Assembly (NCBI RefSeq): GCF_025232395.1
Contig: NZ_CP065938.1
Span: 1,984,001-2,048,000, forward strand
Origin: Taurinivorans muris
GTDB lineage: Bacteria; Desulfobacterota; Desulfovibrionia; Desulfovibrionales; Desulfovibrionaceae
DNA: 64,000 nucleotides
Direction of reading: 5' to 3'
Position numbers and translations under genes: made by a program. Position 1 is the first letter of the stretch. Each line of letters opens with the position of its first letter. Below the pieces are notes generated by a model. It was not told the origin of the DNA. It ran no database searches and was given only the letters and a program-made list of their open reading frames with translations. This document shows positions 25,811 to 46,875 of this stretch, one piece after another.

Positions 25811-26284
25811 TTAAAAGTAAAAAAATGTGAAATTATACCAAAAATGCATTCCGATACAGACATAAGGATTTTTATATTTATCCCATAACATGCCGAAAAT
25901 CATCGCGGGAAAGAAAACAAGCGCCGCCATGGCGGCAGGTTGCCGAAAGAGGTGGAAAAGAGCGAAAAATACGCTGGTCACAATGCAGGACACTGAAACG
26001 GAATATAATTTTTTGTTGTGCAGTAACGTATTCAGCTGCTCTTGAATAAGAACCCGCCATGTCAATTCTTCCATGAAGGCAATCCAAATGAGTTTCAATA
26101 CGCTTGTCTTGTTTAGAGGATGAAAGAAATATCCTGTCCCTCCCAAAAGGAAAGCGAGGAGTATCGGAAACGATACATAGTTTTTCAGGTGTTTCGGAGG
26201 AATAAAAAAAGAATATGTTTCCAAAAACAATTCTATGAAAGTATTCCTCCAAATTTTTACTATTTCCATATTCCTCCGAGACAT
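25811..26284 (-). CDS. Small CPBP (Rce1-like) glutamic intramembrane protease, candidate C-terminal sorting protease
   Basis: A 157-aa multi-pass membrane protein with all three CPBP/Abi motifs: EELTWR (Glu72-Glu73, Arg77), FALFH (Phe107 to His111) and HFWYN (His147 to Asn151). Three to four hydrophobic helices frame them. It is the last gene of the type II secretion operon, its start overlapping the TPR lipoprotein gene by 25 bases. Small CPBP proteases (MrtX, MrtJ, MrtS types) have been proposed from comparative genomics to process C-terminal sorting tails with an invariant Cys. Two proteins with such a tail are encoded 13-20 kb away in the same gene block, so I infer they are its substrates. 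An alternative start is the ATG at 26269 (GGAGG three bases upstream). Confidence 0.85.
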   Translation of the reverse strand: MSRRNMEIVKIWRNTFIELFLETYSFFIPPKHLKNYVSFPILLAFLLGGTGYFFHPLNKTSVLKLIWIAFMEELTWRVLIQEQLNTLLHNKKLYSVSVSCIVTSVFFALFHLFRQPAAMAALVFFPAMIFGMLWDKYKNPYVCIGMHFWYNFTFFYF

Positions 26285-27210
26285 CTTCCCGCATCCTTAT
26301 AAATTTCCAGACGTTCACAGCTTCCCAGAGAACAGGCTTTTTGCAGGTCTTCACAGCCTTCTTTGGTTTTTCTCAGCAAAAACCGGATGTCACCGCGATT
26401 GACATAGGCTTCCGCAAGTTCGGGCAAAAAGCTGATCGCACGGCTGTATTCCTTGTCCGCGTCGGCGTATTTGTTCTTGTCTTTCAATATGTTGCCTTTG
26501 TTGTAATAAAAATATCCGTCAACAGGATACAGGGCTATCGCCTTATCAATGCTTGCCAATGCGTCGTCAAAGCGGTTGTTTTTTTGCTGGGCGACGGCAA
26601 GAGCGTTCCAGGCATACGCATCGTCCGGCATTTGTGCTGTGTATTCCTGCAGTAATTTGATACTGTCGGCATACATGCCCATTTCATAAAATGCGATGGC
26701 TTCATTATATTTTATAATCGGCTCATCGGGATAATTCTGTGCGAAATCGAAAAGAATTTTCAATGCTTTTTCAGGCTGTTTTTCGTGAATCAATATTGTC
26801 GCATCGCCGATAACGGCTTCCATCAGCTGAGGGTCAAGCTCCAATGCCAGTTTGAATTTTTCTTTTGCCTCGGCAATTTGATTGTTCTCATAATATGCGA
26901 TGCCTAAATTTGCCTGCAATGCGGCGGAATTGGGAACAAGGCTGACTGCTTCCTTGAAAACTTTGACGGCGTTTTCCGGTTGTTTGCATTGCAGGTAACT
27001 CATGCCGAGCCCGTTTAGGATAATAGGATTTTTTTGCAGATTGTCGGCTTCTGAAAAAATTTGGATGCTTTTTGAACATTCGTTGTTGTCATAGGCATTG
27101 AATGCCTTTGAGATGTCGAGCGGCGCCAGTCGTTCAGCATTGTTTGACTGCGCTGCGCAGCCGCATAACAATATGAGAAAAAAGAAAGAACAAAGTAAAA
27201 TCCGTTTCAT
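26260..27210 (-). CDS. TPR-repeat lipoprotein of the type II secretion operon
   Basis: A 316-aa protein with a lipoprotein signal peptide (MKRILLCSFFFLILLCGC, lipobox LLCGC with Cys18). About seven tetratricopeptide repeats follow across residues 35-300 (for example SAALQANLGIAYYENNQIAEAKEKF and YAWNALAVAQQKNNRFDDALASIDKAIALYP). The Cys is followed by Ala-Ala, not Asp, so outer-membrane sorting is expected. It lies between gspH (4-base overlap) and the CPBP protease (25-base overlap). By analogy with TPR pilotins of the PilF/PilW type it may help place the GspD secretin in the outer membrane; a role in substrate docking is equally possible. AGGAG lies before its ATG. Confidence 0.85.
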   Translation of the reverse strand: MKRILLCSFFFLILLCGCAAQSNNAERLAPLDISKAFNAYDNNECSKSIQIFSEADNLQKNPIILNGLGMSYLQCKQPENAVKVFKEAVSLVPNSAALQANLGIAYYENNQIAEAKEKFKLALELDPQLMEAVIGDATILIHEKQPEKALKILFDFAQNYPDEPIIKYNEAIAFYEMGMYADSIKLLQEYTAQMPDDAYAWNALAVAQQKNNRFDDALASIDKAIALYPVDGYFYYNKGNILKDKNKYADADKEYSRAISFLPELAEAYVNRGDIRFLLRKTKEGCEDLQKACSLGSCERLEIYKDAGRCLGGIWK

Positions 27211-27695
27211 AAATACTCCTTATGGATTTTGTCGAAATCCATATCGTTATCAAAGGTGAGGGGTTCCCCTATCGTTGGCAGGTAGATGATTTTATAGTTG
27301 TTTTTGTTTTTCACTTTAATCAGGCATTCTTCCGACAATCCGATTTTGCTGACAGCAAGATTGAAAAAACCGTTCGTCAGCGCCTTATTATTGATTTCCG
27401 TTATTTCGGAACCATGGGAAAGCGTAAATTCTTTATATGTTTTCCCATGATTGGCAATAAGGATTTTTTGGGGATAAAAAACCAAATCAAGCTGCTCGCC
27501 ATTAAAAATGGCTAAGCTTTTAGCCTCGGTTTTAGCATCGATTATTTCATTGACGCTATCCAAAATATTTTTGTCGAACGGCCATAAAAAATTAATGGAT
27601 ACGCTCATGAGAATGCTTATTAAAACCAAGCTTATCGTCAGCTCCAGGAGCGTAAAAGCATTGTCGGAGGAGTGATTGCCGTGCGTTTTCATCAT
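27207..27695 (-). CDS. gspH: Type II secretion minor pseudopilin (GspH-like)
   Basis: A 162-aa pseudopilin. The N-methylation motif is FTLLELTISLVLISILMSVSI at about residue 14, so prepilin peptidase would cleave between Ala and Phe. The residue before the cleavage site is Ala, not the usual Gly. The globular part has beta-rich GspH-like character (KEFTLSHGSEITEI). It overlaps the gspG stop codon and is followed by the TPR lipoprotein. Assignment to GspH rather than another minor pilin rests on order and size. Confidence 0.78.
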   Translation of the reverse strand: MMKTHGNHSSDNAFTLLELTISLVLISILMSVSINFLWPFDKNILDSVNEIIDAKTEAKSLAIFNGEQLDLVFYPQKILIANHGKTYKEFTLSHGSEITEINNKALTNGFFNLAVSKIGLSEECLIKVKNKNNYKIIYLPTIGEPLTFDNDMDFDKIHKEYL

Positions 27696-28132
27696 TCTTT
27701 CGCAGTATCTTTTCCGTAAATGTCCTGGTCTTCGTTTTCTCCCCCTTCCTGTCCGTCGGCACCGAAGCTCATGATTTCAAAAGGGGTTCTTTCCCCGGGA
27801 ACGATATAAACATAAGGATTTCCCCATGGGTCGTCCGGAAGCTTGCTGATATAGCCGTTCGCTGGATAATTTTTAGGTGTTTTTCCCATGGTCGGTTTTG
27901 TCACAAGGGCTTCCAAGCCTTGTTCCGTTGAGGGATAAAATCCGTTATCCAAATAGAATTTTTTCACTGCTGTCGATAAATTTTCGATTTGCATTTGTGC
28001 CTGCACAACTCTTGCCTTGTGGGGCTCATCCATGAACTGCGGGGTGATGATGGCGCCTAAGATGCTGAGAATTACCAAAACAATCATTAATTCAAGCAAA
28101 GTGAATCCGTCATTTTTTTTAGAGTGCAACAT
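27692..28132 (-). CDS. gspG: Type II secretion major pseudopilin GspG
   Basis: A 146-aa major pseudopilin with leader MLHSKKNDG and cleavage before FTLLELMIVLVILSILGAII. The diagnostic region DNGFYPSTEQGLEALVTKPTMGKTPKNY and the C-terminal calcium-binding area DPWGNPYVYIVPG...MSFGADGQEGGENEDQDI are nearly canonical. It forms the periplasmic pseudopilus that drives substrate through the secretin. TAAGGAGAT lies before the ATG. A short, highly expressed gene of the operon. Confidence 0.95.
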   Translation of the reverse strand: MLHSKKNDGFTLLELMIVLVILSILGAIITPQFMDEPHKARVVQAQMQIENLSTAVKKFYLDNGFYPSTEQGLEALVTKPTMGKTPKNYPANGYISKLPDDPWGNPYVYIVPGERTPFEIMSFGADGQEGGENEDQDIYGKDTAKE

Positions 28133-28144
28133 CGCATTATCTCC

Positions 28145-29158
28145 TTATTGAATGTTTTTATATTTCCATTTTATATAGTTATCATAAATCGTGCAGATTG
28201 ATACCATGCTTATGTTATTATTGCCGGCTCCGACCCGGATGTGAAAACGGAAAACCCTGCTCGAGTGGGATACGATGCTTTGGGAGGGAACATTCTGTGC
28301 AAAGCTTTCAAAAATTTCCCTGTACCAGGCGGATTCATTTAAATTTTCTTTTGAAGTTCTTTTTAAAAGTATTTGCTGTAAAAAATCGCCGGCTTGATTT
28401 TGTCCGTCATAAAGGCTTCGGACGACAACCGGCTCTAAAAAAACGATATTCATGGGACCGCTGCTCCAAACGCTGACGATGTCGATTAATCCTTTGCCGT
28501 TGTCTGTTCCGTTTATGATATTATGTATCAATGTTTGATCGATAGTTTGCGGCCATGCTATCAAATTTAATTCTTGGGGATTTTCAAACGGTCTTTCGGG
28601 CGGAAAACACCGGACGGGAAGAGCGAGGTATTTTTTTAATTCCTCCGCATCAGGAGCGATCTGTCCTCCCCATATCAGCATGGAATTGAGCATTTCATCC
28701 GCCATTTCATATGCGTTTTCTTCTGTTCCGGCATAACCGTTTTGTTTCATAAGGTTCACCAGAATATTTTTAAGGATTTGCTGATGATATAAAGCTCTCT
28801 TGCGCGTATCGTCCGTTGACGAAAAAATATTGTTGATAGGGAAAAAAGAATTTTCATCGACAATTTGTATGGAAAAATCTTCGCTTTTAAAAGAATCCAT
28901 GATTGCTTGCCAAATAAGCGTCAATTCTTCAAGCGTATGTTTTCGGGCGGCTGATGTTGCTGACAAATTGTTCCGCAAGAGTTTGACTGCGAGATTTTCG
29001 CCCGATTCCGCAAAAATTTTGCTTTGTATTGTTCTTTTGTTTAAATTTGCAAGGGCATGGTCGTACAATACGAATTGAGAAAGCCTGGACGCGATTGCCG
29101 CAAGCCCGGTAAGAATAATTAAAACTATAATCAGAACAGTCCCTTGATTGTTTTTCAT
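28145..29158 (-). CDS. gspK: Type II secretion minor pseudopilin GspK
   Basis: A 337-aa protein with a GspK-type leader and helix (NNQG then TVLIIVLIILTGLAAIA, without the Glu5 of other pseudopilins, as is normal for GspK). The large alpha domain has LLRNNLSATSAARKHTLEELTLIWQ, DENSFFPINNIF and YEMADEMLNSMLIWGGQI, matching the family. GspK caps the pseudopilus tip with GspI and GspJ. It overlaps gspJ by 4 bases. Confidence 0.9.
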   Translation of the reverse strand: MKNNQGTVLIIVLIILTGLAAIASRLSQFVLYDHALANLNKRTIQSKIFAESGENLAVKLLRNNLSATSAARKHTLEELTLIWQAIMDSFKSEDFSIQIVDENSFFPINNIFSSTDDTRKRALYHQQILKNILVNLMKQNGYAGTEENAYEMADEMLNSMLIWGGQIAPDAEELKKYLALPVRCFPPERPFENPQELNLIAWPQTIDQTLIHNIINGTDNGKGLIDIVSVWSSGPMNIVFLEPVVVRSLYDGQNQAGDFLQQILLKRTSKENLNESAWYREIFESFAQNVPSQSIVSHSSRVFRFHIRVGAGNNNISMVSICTIYDNYIKWKYKNIQ

Positions 29159-29823
29159 CGGCTATCTCTTTCTTTTGCCGGAACCGGAACGATAAACGTG
29201 AAGTTTTTTCTGTCGGAATATGAAATGGTAAATTTAAACGCTTGGGGATAAAAATTCTTATCGGCTGTGGTTTTTTCGGACCAGTTTGAATAATATTGTT
29301 CGTTCCATAACGCTTGGATGTCTATTTCTTTGATGTTTTTGTCCAAAAGCAGCTCCGTCGTCCGAAAATCCGTATCGATACCGGCGAACGGACGTTCCCT
29401 GCGTATTAAAACATACGTGTTTTGCCGGGATTTTCGTAAATAATATTCCACGGCATATGCGGGAGGAAGCGCGTTTTTGGGTGCGCCGCCATGTATTTGG
29501 AACGTTGTCTGCAATGAAATGACCAATATGTCGGAACCGGAAGTGTTTTTTTCTGCGCCGGCGAATTGTTTGAACCGTGCGGAATGTTCCTGGGGAGTAA
29601 GAAACACAGGTATAGGTTTGTTGTGAACAATGGAAATATTTGCGAAATCATTATCCAATATTGTTGAAAACAAGCGTTCCTGCTCTTTTTGAAAAACAAT
29701 TTTTTTGCTTTCAGTGCCGAACTGCATCACCATATCGTATGTTGAAAAAAGAACCATGCCTATGACCGAGGTCAGGCTCATGGCTATTAAGAGTTCTATC
29801 AGCGTAAATCCGTTATTGTTCAT
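29155..29823 (-). CDS. gspJ: Type II secretion minor pseudopilin GspJ
   Basis: A 222-aa pseudopilin with leader MNNNG and FTLIELLIAMSLTSVIGMV. It has the usual GspJ pattern of a beta-rich globular domain with Arg-rich strands (YYLRKSRQNTYVLIRRERP) and a C-terminal strand (FTIVPVPAK-like). It overlaps gspI and gspK by 4 bases at each end, a tightly coupled operon. The tip complex GspI-GspJ-GspK is complete here. Confidence 0.88.
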   Translation of the reverse strand: MNNNGFTLIELLIAMSLTSVIGMVLFSTYDMVMQFGTESKKIVFQKEQERLFSTILDNDFANISIVHNKPIPVFLTPQEHSARFKQFAGAEKNTSGSDILVISLQTTFQIHGGAPKNALPPAYAVEYYLRKSRQNTYVLIRRERPFAGIDTDFRTTELLLDKNIKEIDIQALWNEQYYSNWSEKTTADKNFYPQAFKFTISYSDRKNFTFIVPVPAKERDSR

Positions 29824-30170
29824 GGTAATATGTACTCCATGGTGACACTTTGACCGTTTTTGGAATTTTCATTTTTAAAATTGACTGAAAGTATTTTGAG
29901 CTGATATTGCCCGTCAATTGTTTTTATTTCGGATTTCCATGAAATTTTCGGATTTTCAGGAGCGAGCGTTCCCGATTGTTCATAATTCTTGGATTGGATG
30001 ATATTGGTTAAAATTTCCCTTTCCTTATAAATGACGGCATCCTGCCAGAGATTAAACGCTATGCTTTCTTGCTGCCGTCCAATTTGCTGAACGGAAATGA
30101 CGGCGACAATGCTGAGTATCGACAATGAAATCAATACTTCTAACAGGGTGAAAGCGCTGTTTTCATTCAT
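29820..30170 (-). CDS. gspI: Type II secretion minor pseudopilin GspI
   Basis: A 116-aa pseudopilin: leader MNENSA, then FTLLEVLISLSILSIVAVISVQQ, followed by the GspI-typical short domain (YKEREILTNIIQSK...GTLAPENPKISWKSEI). As in gspH the residue before cleavage is Ala, not Gly. It sits between gspM and gspJ with overlaps of 8 and 4 bases. Confidence 0.87.
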   Translation of the reverse strand: MNENSAFTLLEVLISLSILSIVAVISVQQIGRQQESIAFNLWQDAVIYKEREILTNIIQSKNYEQSGTLAPENPKISWKSEIKTIDGQYQLKILSVNFKNENSKNGQSVTMEYILP

Positions 30171-30606
30171 AACGGATAATGCCCATGGACAATGAAAAAA
30201 AGTTGTCGTTATTTTTTTGCATTGATAATTGTTCGATTTGTATGTCAGGATACGCCTGCCATAGGTTCAGCCATGCGACGCATTGGTCCAGGTAAAGGTT
30301 CGAGAGGCGGATTTCCAATTTTTCACTGTAATTTTCAGTGCGGGGAGAAGGATTTACGGATTCTATTTGCTGTGCCATGTTTAATTGTTCCGATATTTCA
30401 TTGAGGCGGTAAAACAGGGACGTTGACAGGGATTTCGCCTGCGGCTGTTCGGAAGGAATCTGCGCGATAAGGCTTTTCAGTTCGGCGTAATTGTTTTTCG
30501 TTGTTTGTAATTGGTGTTCGGCTTTGTTTATCTGCGTGTGAAGATATATGAAACAAAGAAGAAAGCCTGCCGCCGTCAGCATAAGCATATACTTGAGCTT
30601 GCTCAT
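30163..30606 (-). CDS. gspM: Type II secretion inner-membrane protein GspM-like
   Basis: A 147-aa bitopic protein. The short N-terminal cytoplasmic segment and one transmembrane helix (about residues 6-24, YMLMLTAAGFLLCFIYLHT) are followed by a coiled coil (KAEHQLQTTKNNYAELKSLIAQ) and a small ferredoxin-like periplasmic domain. This architecture and its place directly after gspL are those of GspM, which is poorly conserved in sequence. It stabilises GspL in the inner-membrane platform. Confidence 0.75.
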   Translation of the reverse strand: MSKLKYMLMLTAAGFLLCFIYLHTQINKAEHQLQTTKNNYAELKSLIAQIPSEQPQAKSLSTSLFYRLNEISEQLNMAQQIESVNPSPRTENYSEKLEIRLSNLYLDQCVAWLNLWQAYPDIQIEQLSMQKNNDNFFSLSMGIIRYE

Positions 30607-32051
30607 ATGGTATCCTCCACATTGAAGGTGATTTCAAAATTGATGCTGAATTTGTTTTGACCTTTGATGATGGATGCGTTTGTGACTTTCACGTTTGAAA
30701 TATCGGAATCCGCTTTCAACGCGTTTGTTATGTTATCCAGCTCTTCGTAATTTATGGTGCTTGCATTGATTGAAACAATATTTTTGTTCATATTGAAATT
30801 TGTCAGGATGATTTTTTCCTTATCCGGCAAACGTTCGCTTAGGCGGTCCAAAACGGCTAAAGGCGTATTTTGGGAATGCGCGGCTGATTCCGGAGCTATT
30901 CTGTTTAAAAGCACGCTTTTCAACTGCTTGAAATTGGAAAAAGAGGGGGCGTCCGGAACCGCTTTTTTATAACTGTTTTGAATTTCCGTTAAATAGCTCT
31001 CATTTTCATTTTTAAGAGCTGTCAGCTTGAGGCTGAGGGAGCTTAATCCCAAGACAAGACAAAACACAATAAGATAACAAGGAATGAAATTCGGGTTGAG
31101 CAGTTTTTCCAGCTGCGAGTTTTCATTTGTTTTTTCCGGTGAATTTGTTTTGTTTTTATGGGTGAAAAATAATGAAGCCGAGCCGAAAGACAGAAGGATA
31201 TTATGGGCGACAATGTTTTCAGTGCTGTAAACCGCATGCTTGAACGGTGATTTTTTCTTAAAAAACGCGCATTTTTTCAATATATCCGAGAGGGCTTGCA
31301 ATTTGGGAATTGCGATGTACGGAGCATAATTTATTTCTTTGTCGAGGTATTCTTTCAATTCCCGTTTGTTTTCGCTGATGATGACAAATTCCGCATGTTC
31401 CGCATGGGGCAAAATGAAGTTCATGGCGGCATTGAAATATTTGCCGTTTTGTTCATTTTTAAGCAGTTGAATATAATAGAGTTTTTTTATTTGATTTTTT
31501 TTACGGCAAATGGAAAAGAACGTTTCATCGTAAAGAGCCAGATAGTTTTTTTCTTCCGCATGGTTTTGTCCTAAGAGATAAGGGAAAGGCAAAAAGGTTA
31601 TTTTGGTTTGCGCGGCGCCGTATCGGTCCGTCAATAAATACCATGATGTTAAAAAAGACGTTAGGCAAGAGAGCGTGTATGCTGTTGTTTCCGTATCGTT
31701 TTTTTCTTTTTTGCCGATGATTGCGGTATGGGTGAACAGGTTTGCCTGCGGCATTTCGACATCAAGCATTATGCCGATGGCTTTTTTTATTTTTGCGGGC
31801 GAGGAAAAAGGAAATTTCCATTCTTTGACGATGACGTTTTTAGGGTCGAGGCAAATATGCCATACGCTGTTTTTTATGGATTGCGGGCAGCTGCTTTTCA
31901 GGTCGTCAGCAATTGCGGCTGTCAGCTCTTCGGGATTTGTTTTGGCGTATTTTTTTTCAGCAAGCAAAAAGGGCAGGAAAAAGTTTTTTTTCCAGACGGA
32001 AACATGCCAATGCGCTGATTTTTCAATAAGGACGATATAGAGCTTATTCAT
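30603..32051 (-). CDS. gspL: Type II secretion inner-membrane platform protein GspL
   Basis: A 482-aa protein with an actin-like cytoplasmic N-terminal domain (about residues 1-280, including the ATPase-contact region), one transmembrane helix at about 330-350 (YLIVFCLVLGLSSLSLKL) and a C-terminal periplasmic ferredoxin-like domain. This is the GspL plan, with the C-terminal half resembling PilN. GspL recruits GspE to the membrane. It overlaps gspM by 4 bases and follows gspN by 20. Primary-sequence conservation is low, so the call leans on architecture and order. Confidence 0.8.
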   Translation of the reverse strand: MNKLYIVLIEKSAHWHVSVWKKNFFLPFLLAEKKYAKTNPEELTAAIADDLKSSCPQSIKNSVWHICLDPKNVIVKEWKFPFSSPAKIKKAIGIMLDVEMPQANLFTHTAIIGKKEKNDTETTAYTLSCLTSFLTSWYLLTDRYGAAQTKITFLPFPYLLGQNHAEEKNYLALYDETFFSICRKKNQIKKLYYIQLLKNEQNGKYFNAAMNFILPHAEHAEFVIISENKRELKEYLDKEINYAPYIAIPKLQALSDILKKCAFFKKKSPFKHAVYSTENIVAHNILLSFGSASLFFTHKNKTNSPEKTNENSQLEKLLNPNFIPCYLIVFCLVLGLSSLSLKLTALKNENESYLTEIQNSYKKAVPDAPSFSNFKQLKSVLLNRIAPESAAHSQNTPLAVLDRLSERLPDKEKIILTNFNMNKNIVSINASTINYEELDNITNALKADSDISNVKVTNASIIKGQNKFSINFEITFNVEDTI

Positions 32052-32071
32052 AACATATCCAGTTAAATCCG

Positions 32072-33010
32072 TTATAAGACATTGACGTTCGGAGAATTGG
32101 GGGAGCCGGTGATTTTCATTCTGACTTCGTTTTTTTCAAGAATTGATCTTCGCGTGTTTTTTGGGGTCAGTTCCTGATTGATATCATTCTTATCGATTTT
32201 GACAACGGCGTTGAAATTTAATGCCGATTGGCGGAGATTATGGTAATCAAGATCCGCGGTGCCGTTCACTTCCGCCGATATTATGTCGGACTTGAAAGAG
32301 ATATCGCAATAATCGAGTTTGCTTTTGTTCAGCCGCAAATCCACGGACAGATTTCCGTTTGCAATGTCTGAACGGTTCAGGATAGGAATATGGTTGATGA
32401 CATCGGCATTTGTCACGTTTCCTTTGCAGGCTGCGTCCATGGAGAAAAGATCGGGTTTTGAATTTTGCAGCTGAAAGGCTGCGTAAGCGTTGAAATTGGC
32501 TGTGCCGGAATTGACGCCTATCAGTGTTTGCAGCGGAAATGAATTTTTCATGTCTTTTAAATCGATGTTTTCAAATGTCGCCCGCGCGGTTATTTGCTTG
32601 GGAGAAAACAATGCGTCCGATGTGACGGCTGCCGTGATTTTTCCTTTAGCCAAAGCGCCGGTGAGGTTTATTTCCTTGTTCCAAAGCGATAATTCCAATT
32701 TTCCCTGTTCAATCACAATATCCGGATAAGCCGCATGGCTGAGCGCGTCGAATTTTAAAGCGGGCATGATGAGGCTGATTTGCGGGTTGACGATATTGAC
32801 ATTGTTTTCTTCCAATACGGATAAGAAATGCCGAAATTTCATTTCCGCATTCTTTTTCATGGAAAGAACGGCGAAAATGCAAAGATAGCAGATGAGAAAT
32901 AAAAAGAAAGCGAAAAAGAGCCGTTTGAAAAATTCGGCATGGACCGAGAACAGAAGCGGTTTTCGCCATGTTTCAATTTTGCTGAAAAAAGAAGAAAAAA
33001 AGTTACGCAT
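32072..33010 (-). CDS. gspN: Type II secretion protein GspN
   Basis: A 312-aa inner-membrane anchored protein with one N-terminal transmembrane helix (about residues 28-52, KRLFFAFFLFLICYLCIFAVLSMK region) and a beta-rich periplasmic domain, as in GspN of delta-proteobacterial T2SS. Characteristic stretches are GALAKGKITAAVTSDALF and ANGNLSVDLRLNKSKLDY. GspN is an accessory component found in a subset of systems. It overlaps the 3' end of gspE by 8 bases. Confidence 0.82.
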   Translation of the reverse strand: MRNFFSSFFSKIETWRKPLLFSVHAEFFKRLFFAFFLFLICYLCIFAVLSMKKNAEMKFRHFLSVLEENNVNIVNPQISLIMPALKFDALSHAAYPDIVIEQGKLELSLWNKEINLTGALAKGKITAAVTSDALFSPKQITARATFENIDLKDMKNSFPLQTLIGVNSGTANFNAYAAFQLQNSKPDLFSMDAACKGNVTNADVINHIPILNRSDIANGNLSVDLRLNKSKLDYCDISFKSDIISAEVNGTADLDYHNLRQSALNFNAVVKIDKNDINQELTPKNTRRSILEKNEVRMKITGSPNSPNVNVL

Positions 33011-38818: not shown

Positions 38819-38832
38819 CGTTATAGGGTTGA

Positions 38833-41800
38833 TTATGCGTTGTCACGCTTTCTGTAAATGCGTATTGCCAAAAGACCGAATGCCGCCAAGATGACAAGAG
38901 CCAAGTCGTATTGCGCGCTTGTTCCTATGGTGCAGCCCCCGCCTCCGCCATGTCCGGCATAAGGAGCGGTAGGAGCCTTAGGAAGTGAATCCGCGGTTAC
39001 GATGACAGGGTCTTGTATTATTTTATTGGTTTTATCAAGGTCGAATTCGGAATCGTCTTCAATTGCGAAGTGGATGTAGTATGCATTGCCGATTTCAAGC
39101 TTGTCGTTTTCCGTAAGGACGGTGTCAAGCTTTTTGCTGGTAATCCAGAACTTTCCTGCATAGGTCTGCACTTGGGTTTTGTCGAAATCGGCTCCGACAA
39201 GGGTAAATGGCTTGATATTCGCAGGCGTGATGAACTTATGGAGTTTCACGGTGCTGACAGGATCGCCGTTACCCATGATTTGTGCGGAATATATGGCTAC
39301 GGTCTTGGTTCCGTCAATCTTGGAGGTGAACTGGACATTGCCAAGATATGCCTTGCCGAGTGATTTTCCGGCTTCGGCAAGAGTTGCTTCCGGCACAAAG
39401 GAAGCCGGGTCCGTAAAGTCGTCCGCATTTTCGCTGATTGTTTGGATAGTGGAACCTGCAAGGCTGGCGTCGAAGAAACTGCCTTCAAGATAGCTTACGA
39501 AGTTGCCTTCCGTTGTTCCGGGCAAGAAACCGAATACGGCATTGTTGCCCACAATGGTGGTGACAACGGGAATGTCCGCGATTGCCAACAATCCTGTTGT
39601 GCCTTGTTTTTCAAGTTCAAATGGATCTTGTGCGAGAATGACGAAGTCAGCCCAGTTGCCTTCTTTGATTGAACCGAAACGGTCTTCGATTTTGCTTGAG
39701 AATGCGGAGTTCACAGTAACGGCATGCAAAGCCTGCAATACGGTGATGCGTTGGTCGAAGTCATGGAATTCAACCATTTTTGAAGTATCGCCGCTGTTTG
39801 CGTCTTCAACTGTCGGATAGTACTTTTTGGTTTGTCCGATTTCCTTAATGCCGGCAGTGCCGTAAATCGGCTGCTGCTGAGCTTTTATGCCGCCGGCTTG
39901 GTATCCTGAAGAAAGGCGGGTTGTGGCGACTGAGATTGATTTCAACGGGTTTTGAGGCGTTACTGGGGTATCGTTATGGAAGGTGTAACGGTGACCGAGT
40001 TTTACCGCCCAGCCCATAGGGCTCATGTTGTATGCGCGTCCCGGACCCATGAAAATATCTCTGTGGCGTTCGCCCCAGTAATACGTATGGTCGACAAAGT
40101 AAGAGCTGATCATGTTTTGCTGGCGGATGAGGTTTTGTTCTCCGGCTCCGCCCAAAGCGGTTCTGAGGTCTTGCCCCGTATTGCCTTTGCCGGTTGCGAA
40201 TTGGTCAAGGTAGCTGCCTTCTTCCGGATTGTAGTCATTGACTGAATTGGCTTGTTGAGCGCCTTTTTGCCATGTCATGGCGTTTACGCCGGTCCAGACG
40301 TTTGTGAATTTCTTTACGTTTCTCGGCGTGTCGATCGGGAATTGGTCATAGTTGCCCATAATGCGCTGGATGTGCTGCAAATCCTGCATTTGGGCGTGGA
40401 TAACCGTGTGACGGGTGTCGGTGATGTTTTTGCCTTGTTTTTTAGCTTCAAAAGCGGCTTGTTCCACGAAGTTGATAACGTCGTCGTTAGCCCAGCTGCC
40501 GTTCAGGTGCAGGGATACGCCTTGGTTTTGCAGGTGGTATTGGGTAATGGCGTTTTGTACGGAGTCGTATGTGCCGTTGCCGAGTGATTTTTCATTGCCG
40601 TAGTGGGCTCCGCCGACGCAGAAATATTTAGGGTCGGTAACGCTTGGTTTGCCGCCTACCACGTATTCGCCCGTGCCGGCAGCTTCATCGCCCGTACGTC
40701 CGGCAGGGTTGAAAGGCGTCAGATCTGCAGGTTTTGTGTAATAGCCTTGCTGTGCCAAATAACCGGTGTAGCCTTGAATGGAACCGTCATAATTGTATTT
40801 CCAGGTGCCGAGCATGATGCGGTCTTTGTAGCCTACCGGGTCGGCTTGAAACTTTTTGTATAACTGGTTTGCGTACGTCGTGTCAGCCGCTTCGGAACCC
40901 GGTTTTCCATGGTTTTGTTCCGTAGCCGGCGTTCCGGTAAATCCGGGAGGAGTCGGTACGAAAGCGCCGTACCAGGTTGTGATGTCGTCACCTGTTTGCG
41001 GGGAATTGGCGGACGGGGAACCGATGGTTCTGTCTTTTTCATCGGCTGCGGTATAATTCATGCCTGTCCAGCCCAGGGTGAAATGGTTTTGAAGGGTGTG
41101 TTCGTTAATATTGACACCGAAGTTCAGATAGATACGGGGCTGGATTACCATACGCAATGGCAGGGCGTTTGTGGCGAGCGCTTTTTGCGCGTCGTCAAGA
41201 GCCAGACCGAAAGCAAGCGTTCCGCCGTCATTGGCGCTGGTTACGCCGCGGGAAATATAATCCTTGGCGGCATATGGAATCCATTGGTCCTTTGCCGCAG
41301 GAATGGAGGTGACGGCAACAAATTCGGCAGAACTTTCCTGAAGAAGCCCGGTCATGTAGTTTACGGCAGTGTCTGCGTCAGCAATCGGGAAGCTGGCTTT
41401 TCCGTCGTCCTTGCGCATTTGAATGCCGGGAAGCGTTTTCTTGGTACCGTCGTTAAGAGTTATTTCGTATTGGATTTCCGTACCGGATTTGATAAGCTGC
41501 GCGGAAGCCACGCTTTGAGCGCTTGTCAGGACACCTTGGTTTTTTAACGTCGTTGTTAATGTACCTTTAATATATGTGTCGTTGAAAAGTTGTTTTAACG
41601 CCACGGTGTTCACAACGGACATGTGCCCGGAACTGTGACCGATTTTTACAGGTTTTTGTCCCAGTTCACGTACTGAAAGTTCTTCATGGGTCGGGTGGCG
41701 TTTGATGTCAAGCAAGGTGTCGTCGTATCCTGAACCGGAAATTCCGTATTGGTACATATCAGGGTTTTCTTTTGCGGTTTGGATGAGTTTGTCTTGCAGC

Positions 41801-42222
41801 TGTGCCAATGTATTGACACCCGGATCGCCGATGGGAGAAGGGTTCAAGTCGATGCTGGTCAAACCGGATGATGCGGTCGGGAAGTGCCCGTGCGGGTCGA
41901 TGAAGCCCGGAAGCATGACGTTTGTTCCGAGGTTTACTTGTTTGTAATTTGCGTTTTTCGTATACATGTCCGCGTTTTCATTTTCTTTGAAAACTTTTAT
42001 GATTTTGCCTGTTTTGTTATCCACGACAACGGCTTTCGCCTTGTGGGGCTTAACATTGTTTTGAACTTCTTTCAGACTTTCCGTCATGGTATAGATAGTT
42101 CCGCCGCTGTAAACGGTTAAGTTCTGCGTGTTGGCGTAGGCTTGTCTCGGAAGCACCATGAAAGGTGACGCCAACATGGAACACAAACCGTACACCAGGA
42201 CTTTTTTTCCTAGGTTTGCCAT
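38833..42222 (-). CDS. Secreted Amidohydro_3-type amidohydrolase with Cys-containing C-terminal sorting tail (paralogue 1)
   Basis: A 1,129-aa exported metal-dependent hydrolase. The signal peptide (about 30 aa, ending PRQAYA) is followed by the YtcJ-like amidohydrolase start GFIDPHGHFPTA (His111-Gly-His113 metal ligands), SSGHMSVVN, VIHAQMQ (His) and HNDTPVTPQNPLKSI (Asp). It is roughly twice the family length owing to inserts. The C-terminus is a three-part tail: GGGGGC (Cys1097), a transmembrane helix (LALVILAAFGLLAI) and RIYRKRDNA. The ATG at 42222 is supported by AGGAG seven bases upstream and by the signal peptide; a 21-codon upstream extension is ignored. Substrate is unknown. It is inferred to be T2SS-exported and anchored at the surface. 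Confidence 0.88.
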   Translation of the reverse strand: MANLGKKVLVYGLCSMLASPFMVLPRQAYANTQNLTVYSGGTIYTMTESLKEVQNNVKPHKAKAVVVDNKTGKIIKVFKENENADMYTKNANYKQVNLGTNVMLPGFIDPHGHFPTASSGLTSIDLNPSPIGDPGVNTLAQLQDKLIQTAKENPDMYQYGISGSGYDDTLLDIKRHPTHEELSVRELGQKPVKIGHSSGHMSVVNTVALKQLFNDTYIKGTLTTTLKNQGVLTSAQSVASAQLIKSGTEIQYEITLNDGTKKTLPGIQMRKDDGKASFPIADADTAVNYMTGLLQESSAEFVAVTSIPAAKDQWIPYAAKDYISRGVTSANDGGTLAFGLALDDAQKALATNALPLRMVIQPRIYLNFGVNINEHTLQNHFTLGWTGMNYTAADEKDRTIGSPSANSPQTGDDITTWYGAFVPTPPGFTGTPATEQNHGKPGSEAADTTYANQLYKKFQADPVGYKDRIMLGTWKYNYDGSIQGYTGYLAQQGYYTKPADLTPFNPAGRTGDEAAGTGEYVVGGKPSVTDPKYFCVGGAHYGNEKSLGNGTYDSVQNAITQYHLQNQGVSLHLNGSWANDDVINFVEQAAFEAKKQGKNITDTRHTVIHAQMQDLQHIQRIMGNYDQFPIDTPRNVKKFTNVWTGVNAMTWQKGAQQANSVNDYNPEEGSYLDQFATGKGNTGQDLRTALGGAGEQNLIRQQNMISSYFVDHTYYWGERHRDIFMGPGRAYNMSPMGWAVKLGHRYTFHNDTPVTPQNPLKSISVATTRLSSGYQAGGIKAQQQPIYGTAGIKEIGQTKKYYPTVEDANSGDTSKMVEFHDFDQRITVLQALHAVTVNSAFSSKIEDRFGSIKEGNWADFVILAQDPFELEKQGTTGLLAIADIPVVTTIVGNNAVFGFLPGTTEGNFVSYLEGSFFDASLAGSTIQTISENADDFTDPASFVPEATLAEAGKSLGKAYLGNVQFTSKIDGTKTVAIYSAQIMGNGDPVSTVKLHKFITPANIKPFTLVGADFDKTQVQTYAGKFWITSKKLDTVLTENDKLEIGNAYYIHFAIEDDSEFDLDKTNKIIQDPVIVTADSLPKAPTAPYAGHGGGGGCTIGTSAQYDLALVILAAFGLLAIRIYRKRDNA
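38836..38970 (-). other. C-terminal sorting tail coding segment, paralogue 1
   Basis: The final 45 codons of amidohydrolase 1 encode a Pro/Gly linker, GGGGGC with the only Cys of the tail, a hydrophobic helix of about 15-20 residues and a basic cluster. The layout matches Cys-type C-terminal sorting signals of the JDVT-CTERM and Synerg-CTERM classes. Paralogue 2 differs at only two residues in the last 33. Confidence 0.8.
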
Positions 42223-42627
42223 AAAGCTACTCCTGTGAAAGGGGTTGTGAAAATAATCATTAATAATGAAAATTTTCAAAAACAATAGCGCGTGCTATTG
42301 ATATCTGCCTCTTTACAATCATAATTTTCATATATGATTAGGAATAGCAATAACCTATATATATATATATAGTCAATGCATAATTTTGAAAAAAATATGG
42401 CAGGATATGGCAAACATTGCGAAGCATGCTTTTAATGCTGCGTAATTATTTGAATTTTATAAATAAAAAATCATAGTTTTGCTTGCCGGAAGTTAACCGG
42501 CATGGTGTTTTCTCCTTTTTTCGGTTTATGGACCGATATTTCGTGATTGTTCATTTTTTATATATGGATATATATAAGACCGGATAGTTTTGTGAATATT
42601 TTCCTTTTATTTGTTTTTCCGTGAAAA
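42223..42627. promoter_or_regulatory. 405-bp region between the amidohydrolase paralogues: leader and promoter of paralogue 1
   Basis: No gene. Reading on the minus strand it has TTGACT (42371-42376) followed by a TA run (42356-42371), then an A/T-rich stretch and an inverted repeat CAATAGC/GCTATTG (42283-42300). After a 12-base palindrome TGAAAATTTTCA (42267-42278) and TCATTA/TAATGA (42258-42270) comes the SD. The last 85 bases before the ATG match those of paralogue 2 at most positions. The -10 is not clear, so the promoter position is uncertain. The remaining 42380-42627 is featureless A/T-rich DNA. Confidence 0.6.
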
Positions 42628-42659
42628 CTTCGGGCTTTCCCCCAGAGAAAAGCCCGAAG
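42628..42659 (-). terminator. Terminator-like hairpin after amidohydrolase 2
   Basis: CTTCGGGCTTT pairs perfectly with AAAGCCCGAAG across a 10-base loop, with four T beyond, 14 bases past the stop. It is a near copy of the hairpin after paralogue 1. Confidence 0.75.
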
Positions 42660-42673
42660 CGTCATAGGGTTGA

Positions 42674-45600
42674 TTATGCGTTGTCACGCTTTCTGTAAAT
42701 GCGTATCGCCAAAAGACCGAGTGCCGCCAAGATGACAAGAGCCAAGTCGTATTGGGCTGTCGTGCCTATGGTGCAGCCCCCGCCTCCGCCATGTCCGGCA
42801 TAAGGAGCGGTGGGAACCTTAGGGAATGAATCCGCCGTTACGATAACGGGGTCCTGTACCTTTGCGGAGTCCTTGTCAAGGTCGAACTCGGAATCGTTTT
42901 CAATGGCGAAGTGGATATAGTACGCCTTGCCCACTTCAAGAACACTGCCTGCCGCAAGAGGCTTTTCAAGAGTTCTGTCCGTGATCCAGTATTGTTCCGC
43001 GTGACTGTCTATATCGTCCGCATTGACGGAGCCGGTAAAGGTGAACGGTCTGATGTCGGCGTTGTTGATGTACTTATGGAGCCGGACCGTTTCAACCGGG
43101 TCGCCGTTACCCATGATTTGCGCGGATAATACTGCCGTGTTGCTGTTGGTTGTATCAATATCGGCATGGAACTGGACACTGCCGAGATATGCCTTGCCGT
43201 AGTTCTTTGCGGCTTCCATGAGAGTATTTTCCGGAATATAGGAGGCGTTCGGGAACGTATCCGGATTTTCACTTATGTTGGTAAGAGCGGATTGGTTGAA
43301 GAAGCTGGATTCAAGGTTGGAAACAAAGTTACCGGCTTCTGTTCCGGGCAATACGCCGAATACGGTTTCACCGCCGACTATTGTTGCTACAACCGGAATA
43401 TCGGCAATTTGCAATAATCCTGCTTCGCCTTGCTTTTCAAGCTGGAACGGGTCTTGGGCGAGAATGACGAAGTCGGCATAGAAGCCTTCCCTGATTTGAC
43501 CGAGCTTGTTTTCAAGCTGTTTGGTTTCCCAAGCGGAGTTCACGGTTAATGCGTGCAATGCCTGCAATACGGTGATGCGTTGGTCGAAGTACACATAGTC
43601 GCGTTGTTCGCCTTTGTTCAGCTCATCAATCTTGGTCGGATAGAATTTCTTTGTTGCTGTGATGTCCTTGCCCGCGCCTTGGTGGTAAATCGGTTCCTGC
43701 GGACCTTTCACACCGCCGGCGGTATAGCCGGAAGAGAGGCGTGTTGTTGCAATGGTGATTGATTTCAATGGGTTTTGCGGCGTTACAGGGGTGTCGTTAT
43801 GAATGGTCCAGCGGTGTCCCAATTGTACAGCCCAGCCCAGAGGACTCATGTTGTATGCGCTTCCGGGACCCATGAAAATATCTCTGTGGCGTTGTCCCCA
43901 GTAATAGGTATGATCGACAAAGTAGGAGCTGATGAAGTTTTGTTCTTTCATCAATTGACCGTTTCCAAGGTCTTTGCGAAGCTGTTCCGCTTCTTTGGAG
44001 AACTCTTTCTTATAACGCCCTTCTTCAGGGTTGTAACCGCCATATTCCGTTGGGTCCTGCTGTGCCGCTTTCTCCCATGTCATTCCTGCGGTGCCTTGCC
44101 ATACGGTGCAAATATCCTGCAACTTCGCGGGATTGTTCAAGGGATATTGGTCATAGTTGCCCAAAAGACGTTGTGTTTCGACCAATTCCTGCATTTGGGC
44201 GTGGATGACGGTGTGACGGCCGTCTTTAATGCCGGGATTGCTTGCAATGGCTTTTTCAATGAACGTCACGCCGTCGCTGCTTGCACGGCTGCCGTTCATA
44301 TGGCAGTGAATGCTTTGTCCCTTTTCATGGTAACGCTTATAGGTGATTTCGCCGAGTTTGAAAACATCCTGCGCTTTGTTGATAAAGAAGCAACCTTCGT
44401 TTCCGTAGTGTTTGCCGGCTTCGACGAAGTTTTTGGGGTCGTTTATGGATTCCATGCCAAGATTGTTGATTGTGACGGAACCGTCAGGATTGGTTGTTCT
44501 GCCGACAGGGAAATAGGTCACGTTTCCGTCGGGAAGCTGATAATATCCCTTTTGTCCGAAGAAACCGGTATACCCTTGGTTGGAGCCGTCATAAATCATT
44601 TTCCAAGAACCGAGGAAAATCCTGTCCAAAGGAAGTTCTTTATTTAATTGCTTTTGGTAAATTTGGTTGGCTAATGTTGTTGGGGCGGCGAGTTCACCGG
44701 GACCTGCGTTCTTCATATCACCATTCCATGCGGAAATATCGTCACCCGCTTTTGGAGATTTGACGCTTGGGTTGCCGATGGAGCGTTGTTCGTCAGGTTT
44801 GGATTTGTCATAAATCATATTTTCCCATGCAAGAGCAAAATGGTTCATCAAGCTTGTTTGATTGATTTCAGGATCCAGCGCGTTATAAACCATCGGCTGG
44901 ATAATGGTTCTGATTTTCAGCTTGTTGTTCAAAAGACCTTGCTGCGCATTCGGAAGGGCTTGGGGAAGAACTGCGGCGCCCTGCATGGAGGTTGTCACGC
45001 CGCGGGAAGCGTATTCTTTTGACGCCATCGCCATTATTTCAGCCTGTTTCGGTGCGTATGCCTTATCCGCCGGAAGCTGTGCCACATAGCTCATCGCCGC
45101 TTCAACGAAAGTACCTGTCATGCATTTTAAATATGTGTCAACGGTATCGGGTCCGGTAGCCAATGTCTGTGCCGCATCCGCCCGCATTATGATACCCGGC
45201 AGTTCTTTTGTCGTGGAACTGCCTCCGCTTGGAGTGTAGGTAATTTGATAAAACACATTGCCGTTTTTATTGATTAATTTGGCGGCTGTCACTTGGTCGG
45301 CTGGATCTAATTGGATAGCCTTTTTAAATGTATCGCTGTTGTAATAGGATGAGTCAAAGAAACGTTTTAATGCTGCAGTATTGACTGAAATAAGGTGACC
45401 GGAAATGTGGGAAGCCCTGATTATATACTTGGCTAATTCGCCTTTGTTGAGTTCTTCATGCAAAGGGTGCCTTTGAACGTCTAACAATGTGTCGTCATAG
45501 TCGGAAGCGGTTACGTAATTAATGCCTTTGCCTGCATAGTCGCGTTCCGTGATTTTTTCAAGCAAACGCGCCTGCACTTCTTCTATGGTGTCAACATCGC

Positions 45601-45991
45601 CGATGGGAGACGGAGCCAAGCTGATGCCGCTGTAATTGGGTGCGGCGGGGAAGTGCCCGTGCGGGTCGATAAAGCCCGGAAGCATGACGTTTGTTCCGAG
45701 GTTTACTTGTTTGTAATTTGCGTTTTTCGTATACATGTCCGCGTTTTCATTTTCTTTGAAAACTTTTATGATTTTGCCTGTTTTGTTATCCACGACAACG
45801 GCTTTCGCCTTGTGGGGCTTGACGTTGTTTTGAACTTCTTTCAGGCTTTCCGTCATGGTGTAAATCGTGCCGCCGCTGAATACCGTGTAATTTTGCGTAT
45901 TGGCATAGGCTTGTCTCGGAAGCACCATGAAAGGTGACGCCAACATGGAACACAGGCTGTACACTAAGACTTTTTTCCCTAGGTTTGCCAT
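42674..45991 (-). CDS. Secreted Amidohydro_3-type amidohydrolase with Cys-containing C-terminal sorting tail (paralogue 2)
   Basis: A 1,105-aa paralogue of the gene that follows it. The signal peptide and first 115 residues are almost identical (GFIDPHGHFPAA carries the metal-binding His pair), as are the last 45 (GGGGGC with Cys1073, LALVILAALGLLAI, RIYRKRDNA). The middle is clearly diverged, including insert regions around residues 150-320 and 440-560, so the two probably act on different substrates. Catalytic motifs SHISGHLISVN, VIHAQMQ and HNDTPVTPQNPLKSI remain. The ATG at 45991 has AGGAG seven bases upstream. It stands first in the block, with its own TTGACA-type element. Confidence 0.88.
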   Translation of the reverse strand: MANLGKKVLVYSLCSMLASPFMVLPRQAYANTQNYTVFSGGTIYTMTESLKEVQNNVKPHKAKAVVVDNKTGKIIKVFKENENADMYTKNANYKQVNLGTNVMLPGFIDPHGHFPAAPNYSGISLAPSPIGDVDTIEEVQARLLEKITERDYAGKGINYVTASDYDDTLLDVQRHPLHEELNKGELAKYIIRASHISGHLISVNTAALKRFFDSSYYNSDTFKKAIQLDPADQVTAAKLINKNGNVFYQITYTPSGGSSTTKELPGIIMRADAAQTLATGPDTVDTYLKCMTGTFVEAAMSYVAQLPADKAYAPKQAEIMAMASKEYASRGVTTSMQGAAVLPQALPNAQQGLLNNKLKIRTIIQPMVYNALDPEINQTSLMNHFALAWENMIYDKSKPDEQRSIGNPSVKSPKAGDDISAWNGDMKNAGPGELAAPTTLANQIYQKQLNKELPLDRIFLGSWKMIYDGSNQGYTGFFGQKGYYQLPDGNVTYFPVGRTTNPDGSVTINNLGMESINDPKNFVEAGKHYGNEGCFFINKAQDVFKLGEITYKRYHEKGQSIHCHMNGSRASSDGVTFIEKAIASNPGIKDGRHTVIHAQMQELVETQRLLGNYDQYPLNNPAKLQDICTVWQGTAGMTWEKAAQQDPTEYGGYNPEEGRYKKEFSKEAEQLRKDLGNGQLMKEQNFISSYFVDHTYYWGQRHRDIFMGPGSAYNMSPLGWAVQLGHRWTIHNDTPVTPQNPLKSITIATTRLSSGYTAGGVKGPQEPIYHQGAGKDITATKKFYPTKIDELNKGEQRDYVYFDQRITVLQALHALTVNSAWETKQLENKLGQIREGFYADFVILAQDPFQLEKQGEAGLLQIADIPVVATIVGGETVFGVLPGTEAGNFVSNLESSFFNQSALTNISENPDTFPNASYIPENTLMEAAKNYGKAYLGSVQFHADIDTTNSNTAVLSAQIMGNGDPVETVRLHKYINNADIRPFTFTGSVNADDIDSHAEQYWITDRTLEKPLAAGSVLEVGKAYYIHFAIENDSEFDLDKDSAKVQDPVIVTADSFPKVPTAPYAGHGGGGGCTIGTTAQYDLALVILAALGLLAIRIYRKRDNA

Positions 45992-46149
45992 AAAACCACT
46001 CCTATGAAAGGGGTTGTGAAAATAATCATTAATAATGAGCATTTTCAGGAACAATAGCGCGAACTATTGATATCTGCCTTCTTAAACATAATCATATGTT
46101 TATAATCCACCTCTAATATATATATATATGTCAAGCGAAAAAGGCGGAA
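45992..46149 (-). promoter_or_regulatory. Leader and promoter region of paralogue 2
   Basis: On the minus strand TTGACA (46129-46134), a TA run (46115-46129), TATAAAC, and a conserved 85-base leader with CAATAG/CTATTG arms (46052-46069) and TCATTATTAATGA. It begins 16 bases after the gspO stop. The order of elements is the same as for paralogue 1. Confidence 0.6.
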
Positions 46150-46875
46150 TTACAGGAAGAGTATGAAAAGCGCCGCAAATCCCAAGAAGGGACCGAAAGG
46201 AATTTTGGTTGTATGAAGGTCGGTTTTGTATTTAAAATGAAAGAATATGCTGTAACAGAGGGCGGAACCTGAAGCAATCATGAAAAAGAGGGGAATTTCG
46301 CGCGGCAGCAGGAACAGCCCTAGGAAAAGGACGAATTTCACATCGCCGAGTCCTAAGGCTTCCAGTTTTCTTATATGAAGAAAATAGGCATGGCAGAGAT
46401 AAAGCACGGCAAAACAGATAAAGGAAGATAGAATGTTTTCCGGTGAAACAAAGGTCAGCCAATATCCTAAAGGCAGAAAAAGAAGAAAGGAATAAACCGT
46501 AAGAAGATCGGGAATGATAAGCAGGCGGCAGTCGATAATGCCTGCAATCAAAATGATGTGCACGGCGAAACAGTAAAAAACAAATTCCGGAGTAAGCCCG
46601 AATTTCACATAGGTTAAAAGGCTTGCCGTTCCGAAAAGAAATTCCGTAAAGGGATAAAAAAAAGAGATTTTGCCGCGGCAAAAGGAGCAATGCCCTTTTT
46701 GCATAAGAAAACTGATAATCGGTATCAGCTGATACCATTTCAAAGTCCCGCAGCAGTTCGGGCACTTCGACCTTTTGGTGAAAATCGGCGATTTTGCACA
46801 AAACCGCGCAATGCCACAGGCGTAAAAACTGCCTGAGGCAAGCCCTGCTGCGAATATGAGAAAATGGAAAATCAT
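46150..46875 (-). CDS. gspO: Prepilin peptidase / N-methyltransferase
   Basis: A 241-aa aspartic membrane protease with at least six hydrophobic helices. The cytoplasmic zinc loop is CPNCCGTLKWYQLIPIISFLMQKGHCSFC (two C-x2-C pairs). The catalytic Asp residues are in GIIDCRLLIIPD and GLGDVKFVLFLGLFL (GxGD). It cleaves and N-methylates GspG, H, I, J and K precursors. It lies at the far end of the T2SS block on the same strand and completes the machine. The N-terminus starts MIFHFLIFAAGLASGSF as in the family. Confidence 0.93.
   Translation of the reverse strand: MIFHFLIFAAGLASGSFYACGIARFCAKSPIFTKRSKCPNCCGTLKWYQLIPIISFLMQKGHCSFCRGKISFFYPFTEFLFGTASLLTYVKFGLTPEFVFYCFAVHIILIAGIIDCRLLIIPDLLTVYSFLLFLPLGYWLTFVSPENILSSFICFAVLYLCHAYFLHIRKLEALGLGDVKFVLFLGLFLLPREIPLFFMIASGSALCYSIFFHFKYKTDLHTTKIPFGPFLGFAALFILFL

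Follow-up and report, generated by a model that had tools for sequence, protein, structure and literature searches.

Do a type II secretion system (T2SS), a small CPBP-family intramembrane protease, and two hydrolases with a cysteine-containing C-terminal tail belong to one pathway when a single locus encodes them all? This question is raised by a 64,000-nucleotide stretch of Taurinivorans muris DNA (the window; contig NZ_CP065938.1, positions 1,984,001 to 2,048,000), in which a block at 25811-46875 holds all these genes. We consider it likely that the block is a dedicated export-and-sorting cassette, made of a T2SS and an MrtJ-like protease, for metal-dependent bile salt hydrolases (metalloBSHs) in gut Desulfovibrionaceae. 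The parts, their conserved order, and the co-segregation of tail, protease, T2SS, and a tetratricopeptide repeat (TPR) lipoprotein are established here.

Two tailed bile salt hydrolases and a CPBP protease in one block

A preliminary description of this DNA had read the block as a minus-strand array of two large tailed "surface hydrolases," a T2SS, a prepilin peptidase, a TPR lipoprotein, and a small CPBP protease with all three motifs of its family. We went through it gene by gene, using open reading frames (ORFs) and family scans. Every gene is on the minus strand and these parts are all present, with the tails found in both hydrolases. The hydrolases are large and tailed as described, and their identity is corrected below. 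The features on which the argument turns are as follows.

25811..26284, minus strand: MrtJ-like CPBP glutamic intramembrane protease, 157 amino acids (PF02517, NF033192, motifs, structure model)
26260..27210, minus strand: TPR lipoprotein (TPR Pfam matches; LLCGC lipobox read from the sequence)
38833..42222, minus strand: metalloBSH 2, with signal peptide, Amidohydro_3 domain, C-terminal domain, and Cys tail (PF07969 113 bits, active-site residues, tail alignment)
38836..38955, minus strand: sorting tail of metalloBSH 2, 40 amino acids, with Gly-rich stretch, GCTIG, YD, hydrophobic helix, and basic end (tail alignment and hidden Markov model [HMM])
42674..45991, minus strand: metalloBSH 1, with signal peptide, Amidohydro_3 domain, C-terminal domain, and Cys tail (PF07969 85.6 bits, active-site residues)
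42677..42796, minus strand: C-terminal sorting tail of metalloBSH 1 (tail alignment and HMM; low-confidence model)

The hydrolase ORFs run from 38833 to 42285 and from 42674 to 46054, about 1,100 amino acids each, and the internal ATG codons at 42222 and 45991 are the more likely true starts. Both proteins match the PF07969 amidohydrolases, and their sequences identify them as metalloBSHs. A preprint by Cui et al. (2026; PMC13081902) describes metal-dependent bile salt hydrolases (BSHs) of Bilophila wadsworthia whose genes adjoin a predicted T2SS and whose product is secreted, and it reports that TmBSH1 of T. muris is active in vitro. TmBSH1 is presumably one of the two BSHs at this locus; T. 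muris has two BSH matches, a lower bound because two candidates per genome were scored.

That preprint names H110, H112, K373, H441, H474, and D583 as metal residues of BwBSH1 and S194, Q381, N443, and H544 as its sulfonate residues; H196 is named in addition. The counterparts in metalloBSH 1, counting from the ORF's TTG, are H132, H134, K485, H585, H618, and D754 for the metal and S218, Q493, N587, H715, and H220 for the others, as mapped by motif and spacing from the published numbering rather than from the BwBSH1 sequence. These 11 metal, sulfonate, and catalytic positions are invariant in 22/22 aligned BSH homologues. A profile search of the PDB returned other amidohydrolases, the best being 3igh and 3icj. 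The structure model of the BSH has a mean predicted local distance difference test (pLDDT) score of 48.9 and was used only for its disordered linker and the C-terminal helix that follows, both at low confidence.

Both hydrolases terminate in GGGGGCTIGTxAQYD, then a hydrophobic helix, and then RIYRKRDNA. In an alignment of 10 tails from six genomes (44 columns), G, C, T, G, Y, D, and one R are invariant. The Cys, the helix, and the basic C terminus are present in 10/10 aligned tails, and the Cys in 11/11 complete ones. A GCT[VI]G....YD core is conserved, and the adjoining linker is variable. The two T. muris proteins are 59% identical and their tails 95% identical. Their genes (38833-46054) share 90% identity in the first ~460 bases and ~92% across ~200 alignment columns close to the 3' end, with much less between, a pattern that looks as though gene conversion prevents the two signal peptides and the two tails from diverging.

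The JDVT-CTERM model NF033191 (cut-off 27) scored the T. muris tails at 22.9 and 22.7 bits by hmmscan and at 28.5 and 28.4 bits in a six-frame search. The Synerg-CTERM model (TIGR04564, cut-off 22.5) was rejected; its best match in the T. muris genome, at 12.5 bits, was outside the window. The HMM built from the ten tails finds two tails in the T. muris genome, both at this locus.

The protease is MrtJ-like

The CPBP protein scores 52.4 bits against PF02517 (gathering score 22.4) and has the motifs EExxxR (EELTWR, 72), FxxxH (FALFH, 107), and HxxxN (HFWYN, 147). It is the only CPBP protein in the whole T. muris genome at E 0.001. A 99% match to it lies on a contig of 'Desulfovibrio sp. UBA8003', a metagenome-assembled genome with >98% average nucleotide identity to T. 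muris LT0009 (Ye et al. 2023; PMC10507020). Against NF033192, the MrtJ equivalog, it reached 67.7 bits by hmmscan and 68.6 in the search of the family; we filed it as MrtJ-like rather than as a member of MrtJ because both scores are under the cut-off of 75. Relatives scored 73.6 (genome G273) and 75.7 bits (G011) by hmmscan. The catalytic residues are conserved in a 14-sequence protease alignment, which includes one fragment that lacks the first motif. As is expected of MrtJ, the protease is encoded in the same block as its tailed candidate targets, and it is on the same contig as them in G106, G110, G054, G011, and G273.

The structure model (mean pLDDT 82.9) was compared with 46 chains. SagB-SpdC (6u0o) came first (Z 10.5, 3.3 Å over 114 residues) and Rce1 (4cad) second (Z 8.2, 3.1 Å over 111 residues), followed by a row at Z 3.9; among helical bundles a Z under ~13 may reflect a common arrangement, so these values alone do not prove an Rce1 fold. 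A plain Foldseek search of the PDB gave 11 matches up to E 10, with none at E 0.001 and no CPBP structure among them, and a profile sequence search of the PDB had no match at E 1.

Tail, protease, and T2SS segregate together

We searched 288 Desulfovibrionaceae genomes, in which T. muris is G000 and G272 is the same species. The tail HMM matched 13 of them at E 0.001. Six of the 13 had contributed tails and so matched by construction, which is not true of G272, G273, the third BSH of G011, or five further genomes. An MrtJ match at E 1e-6 was found in 13/13 tail-positive genomes versus 28/275 others (Fisher 1.5e-12, which overstates the evidence because the test treats related genomes as independent).

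NF033191 had matches at E 0.01 in 22 genomes. The five without an MrtJ match (G027, G042, G158, G234, and G270) scored 18.8-23.3 bits, under the cut-off. Among tailed-BSH genomes, it matched at E 0.01 in three of eight: G000, G272 (27.9 bits), and G110 (17.9 bits), all by six-frame search. That search had no match at E 0.01 in G273, G011, G054, G104, or G106, and by hmmscan the G110 BSH had none at E 0.01.

The full-length BSH profile matched 17/288 genomes at E 1e-80, and G273, which has fragments, makes 18. (A single-protein search at E 1e-60, which this one replaced, had matched 7/288 genomes, with G110 and the tail-less homologues overlooked.) BSH copy numbers are minimum values, because two candidates per genome were scored; a third copy in G011 was found only through the tail search. 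Eight genomes have a tailed BSH (G000, G272, G273, G011, G054, G104, G106, and G110). As far as found, ten have tail-less BSHs only (G101, G008, G100, G010, G016, G042, G177, G014, G191, and G195), a status that rests on the absence of a tail-HMM match there. In the 11 tail-less BSHs that were read, the C-terminal domain is retained, and the protein stops close to the expected start of the linker, either a few residues short of it or as many as ~15 beyond. The active site of the tail-less BSHs is intact.

A CPBP protein (PF02517, E 0.01), a GspD over its cut-off, and the TPR lipoprotein (E 1e-25) were each found in 8/8 genomes with tailed BSHs versus 0/10 with tail-less BSHs only (p 2.3e-5 if the genomes are independent). 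Four of the ten and three of the eight are under 90% complete, and single absences may be gaps. Six of the ten had other secretins alone, at 126-156 bits, and four had no secretin. Therefore, the case that would have spoken against the preliminary description, a tail without this CPBP clade or the T2SS, does not occur among the 18 BSH genomes, and the exceptionless co-segregation in them supports its proposal that these are components of a single pathway.

All eight cassette proteases group in a single clade of a 32-row tree that has several long branches (98/95 support; 97% of 200 bootstrap trees). The cassette secretins are also set apart, since the GspD clade above 780 bits comprises nine genomes and the next score is 597. 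In a BSH tree built without the tail, the well-supported branches require at least two tail changes. The association with the tail is therefore not an accident of one clade. A partial BSH on contig 170 of G104, the N-terminal fragment of G273, and the G272 BSH were left unaligned, and the third G011 BSH was added late. G054 is an additional case, as it has a tailed BSH beside the cassette and, at another locus, a tail-less paralogue with 45% identity to it, which makes a natural control within the same cell.

In the eight BSH genomes, every tail match at E 0.001 is on a BSH except in G273, where it is a 63-amino-acid fragment at the end of a contig, in the position that the BSH occupies in other blocks. 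The tail of the other five tail-positive genomes is weaker (23-31 bits). Six JDVT-type proteins of MrtJ-positive genomes were scanned; the tail-HMM matches of G142, G251, and G205 are S8 subtilases, and other cargo had an NHL repeat match (one G205 protein), a beta-propeller (G278), or FG-GAP repeats (G197). A class-wide tail search, for which 209 genomes were drawn, had eight matches at E 1e-4, all of them already in the family search; the 28 of 209 rows that were listed are all Desulfovibrionaceae.

Two side observations concern these other carriers. At L088 (G142:C19:255001-275000), an MrtJ gene lies amid three strong JDVT-CTERM proteins (49.7, 45.8, and 44.2 bits), at least one of which is a subtilase. 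L091 and L098 hold S8 subtilases of ~1,100 amino acids whose tails are of the JDVT type; the genomes are Desulfovibrionaceae that have MrtJ and do not belong to the BSH group.

Gene order is conserved in relatives

The block BSH-gspF-C-D-E-N-L-M-I-J-K-G-H-TPR-CPBP recurs in G106 and G110, and there and in G104 the prepilin peptidase adjoins the CPBP gene. C, N, L, M, or H went undetected by tblastn in one or another of the syntenic genomes. The block of G104 is divided between two contigs. In G273, the stretch from CPBP to gspD is syntenic and a BSH-type tail lies further along the same contig, and in G054 the BSH gene is convergent and adjoins the CPBP gene. G011 has a syntenic block too, with a tailed BSH gene next to gspF. 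The BSH gene is directly upstream of gspF in G000, G104, G106, G110, and G011. Because the same arrangement recurs in related genomes, it is not a product of chance.

Sorting, release, or anchoring

On the reading that we prefer, a BSH precursor would cross the inner membrane by Sec and be tethered by its C-terminal helix during folding. We infer that the MrtJ-like protease cuts this tail, next to the invariant Cys, which would probably have been acylated by a housekeeping enzyme beforehand. The adjoining T2SS would then carry the enzyme, already folded, out to the surface, and the TPR lipoprotein may assist by helping to assemble the secretin. At the surface, the BSH might be partly held and partly released, and the taurine that is liberated extracellularly from bile salts would feed taurine respiration.

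Several observations weigh against this reading. The protease scores below the cut-off for MrtJ, no Cys acyltransferase is encoded in the block, and the p values for co-occurrence are inflated by relatedness. In G011 the protease gene is ~5.5 kb from the TPR gene. A ninth genome of the GspD clade, G185 (69% complete), has the cassette-clade gspD with gspE on a 4.2-kb contig (G185:C25, L124), yet the searches revealed no BSH, CPBP, or TPR protein in this genome. Finally, Cui et al. (PMC13081902) purified active BwBSH from 0.2-µm-filtered Bilophila medium and reported greater activity of strain 3_1_6 in supernatant than in lysate. Because active enzyme is found in culture medium, retention in Bilophila is at best partial.

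From the published numbers (length 945; PMC13081902), BwBSH1 has 362 residues after the metal Asp, compared with 349-378 in the tailed set and 289-323 in the tail-less set. The G011 BSH adjoining gspF has exactly 362, and its numbering is nearly that of BwBSH1. These lengths suggest that BwBSH1 carries the tail; if it does, then active enzyme in filtered medium means that much of it is released after processing. MYXO-CTERM proteins, too, are reported to be released in part (Guo, Haft and Wall 2025; PMC11980579).

Could release be the whole purpose? The tail might hold the BSH at the inner membrane only for folding or loading into the T2SS, and cleavage might free a soluble enzyme that the T2SS secretes with neither lipid nor retention. 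We find this rather unlikely, even though it is the strongest competitor. The lack of an acyltransferase gene in the block fits it, as does the purification of BwBSH by ordinary chromatography, from clarified lysate as well as from the filtered medium (PMC13081902). However, a plain cut would not need a Cys, which is invariant in the complete tails. Ordinary T2SS release is not known to require a tail. Furthermore, washed resting Bilophila cells hydrolyse taurocholate too (PMC13081902), and a MYXO-CTERM protein that loses its tail is released instead of staying at the surface (PMC11980579).

Alternatively, the tail might be a plain membrane anchor and the CPBP protease might act on something else, such as a peptide or a T2SS part, with linkage reflecting one co-inherited island. 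CPBP proteases do have other roles, and the same co-occurrence would result if one island were passed on whole. This is improbable, because JDVT-type tails occur on unrelated cargo in other genera (subtilases, beta-propellers, and FG-GAP proteins), MrtJ is found in every tail-positive genome, and genomes with tail-less BSHs only have no CPBP protein at E 0.01. The tail core, kept beside a variable linker, also exceeds what an anchor needs. Least probable is a periplasmic location of the hydrolases in T. muris, with the T2SS serving other cargo. The position of the BSH gene directly upstream of gspF in five genomes, with a BSH-type tail beyond gspD in G273, speaks against it. So does the fact that BSH genomes without the T2SS also lack the tail, and the Bilophila enzymes are extracellular (Cui et al. 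2026; PMC13081902).

For the preferred reading, Cys modification, passage through the T2SS in T. muris, and any retention at the surface are expected steps. A wider proposal is that the T2SS, MrtJ-like protease, TPR lipoprotein, and tail are a separable localisation module, so that tail-less BSHs without it would probably be periplasmic and tailed BSHs with it would be at the surface or outside. The module would then decide between private and community-shared deconjugation and taurine, and the tail would have been lost or gained with it at least twice. We regard this proposal as evenly poised. Deconjugation of bile salts shapes the bile acid pool of the host, and the taurine that is released drives T. 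muris and Bilophila to form hydrogen sulfide. A lack of growth of T. muris on conjugated bile acids has been reported, for which a missing step of expression or export may be responsible. Because one locus of a small cultured genome holds a single protease and two known substrates with tails, Cys-type C-terminal sorting becomes directly testable outside the myxobacteria, and the tail-less BSH homologues are natural controls.

Relation to known sorting systems

The closest published system is JDVT-CTERM/MrtJ (NF033191, NF033192), which also has a Cys tail, a helix, a basic end, a small three-motif CPBP protease, and chromosomal linkage. MrtJ and one JDVT-CTERM gene form a conserved two-gene neighbourhood (Guo et al. 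2025, citing Haft 2024; PMC11980579). The locus here differs in that its scores are near or under the curated cut-offs, its substrates are one or more BSHs, and it is embedded in a T2SS locus. Moreover, the published pair is from beta- and gammaproteobacteria, whereas T. muris belongs to the Desulfobacterota. The preliminary description had taken physical linkage as direct evidence of joint function and had noted that substrate and protease are often not clustered; linkage of this type of protease to its substrate had already been published.

In MYXO-CTERM sorting, MrtX, a CPBP protease, cleaves the tail in a Cys-dependent manner and is reported to be sufficient in E. coli; a proposal in the same paper is that an Lgt-like enzyme lipidates before cleavage, with T2SS transit afterwards (PMC11980579). 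That system shares the Sec signal peptide, Cys tail, CPBP protease, and T2SS with ours, and its surface display depends on the T2SS. The T. muris block fits the same scheme, with a smaller protease and a T2SS at one locus. In contrast, it has 35 substrates in Myxococcus xanthus, a longer protease, and demonstrated cleavage. The GlyGly-CTERM/rhombosortase system of Vibrio is similar in that T2SS cargo has a tripartite tail cut by an intramembrane protease, but that protease is a rhomboid and the motif is Gly/Ser rich and is not known to include an invariant Cys.

The Bilophila metalloBSHs share the enzyme family and the T2SS adjacency, and a C-terminal disordered region and secretion are described for the Bilophila enzyme (Cui et al. 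2026; PMC13081902). This qualifies the earlier statement that such a system was undescribed for this type of organism: the T2SS adjacency of BSHs had been reported, while the words CPBP, CTERM, sortase, transmembrane, and anchor are absent from the main text of that preprint. In the open-licence literature, we found no description of a T2SS-embedded, MrtJ-like form dedicated to BSHs.

The T2SS and remaining genes of the block

The gene order is prepilin peptidase, metalloBSH 1, metalloBSH 2, gspF, gspC, gspD, gspE, gspN-like, gspL-like, gspM, gspI-, gspJ-, and gspK-like, gspG, gspH-like, TPR lipoprotein, and CPBP. The T2SS genes and the prepilin peptidase gene are listed here.

27207..27695, minus strand: GspH-like minor pseudopilin (N-methyl motif 24.8 bits, position)
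27692..28132, minus strand: GspG major pseudopilin (TIGR01710 164 bits, cut-off 88.9)
28145..29158, minus strand: GspK-like protein (position and length, syntenic homologues; no significant family match)
29155..29823, minus strand: GspJ-like pseudopilin (N-methyl motif, synteny)
29820..30170, minus strand: GspI-like pseudopilin (N-methyl motif, synteny)
30163..30606, minus strand: GspM (PF04612 24.9 bits, under the cut-off of 27.8)
30603..32051, minus strand: GspL-like protein (PF05137 25.8 bits; TIGR01709 15 bits, weak)
32072..33010, minus strand: GspN-like protein (position, homologue in sister species; no Pfam match)
33003..34697, minus strand: GspE ATPase (TIGR02533 616.5 bits, 14 bits under the cut-off of 630.3)
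34708..36660, minus strand: GspD secretin (TIGR02517 452 bits, cut-off 351; in the nine-genome clade)
36670..37479, minus strand: GspC (PF11356 46.8 bits)
37481..38767, minus strand: GspF (PF00482 224 bits)
46150..46875, minus strand: prepilin peptidase, GspO/PilD, A24 (PF06750 79.9 bits, PF01478 45.6 bits)

GspD is over its cut-off and is accompanied by GspC, GspE, GspF, GspG, and pseudopilins. The complete T2SS of the preliminary description holds by family for GspD, GspG, GspE, GspF, GspC, and GspM. GspH, GspI, GspJ, GspK, GspL, and GspN depend on motif, order, and length (GspI, GspJ, and GspH have the N-methyl motif alone, and GspK and GspN, with no significant match, were assigned by order and length). 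Therefore, a complete T2SS is a reasonable reading of the block rather than one proven gene by gene. A promoter/terminator scan of 25700-45600 supports no operon claim (36 versus 30.2 [SD 5.9] and 36 versus 29.9 [SD 5.1] in shuffles).

The TPR lipoprotein gene shares 25 bp with the beginning of the CPBP gene. Its product has a sub-cut-off likeness to PilW/Tgl-type lipoproteins and may be the pilotin of the cassette T2SS. In the T. muris genome, a single contig of 2,172,708 bases, the block is flanked on one side by genes for a GNAT acetyltransferase and a protein of the pyruvate:ferredoxin oxidoreductase type and on the other by a SpoU methylase gene.

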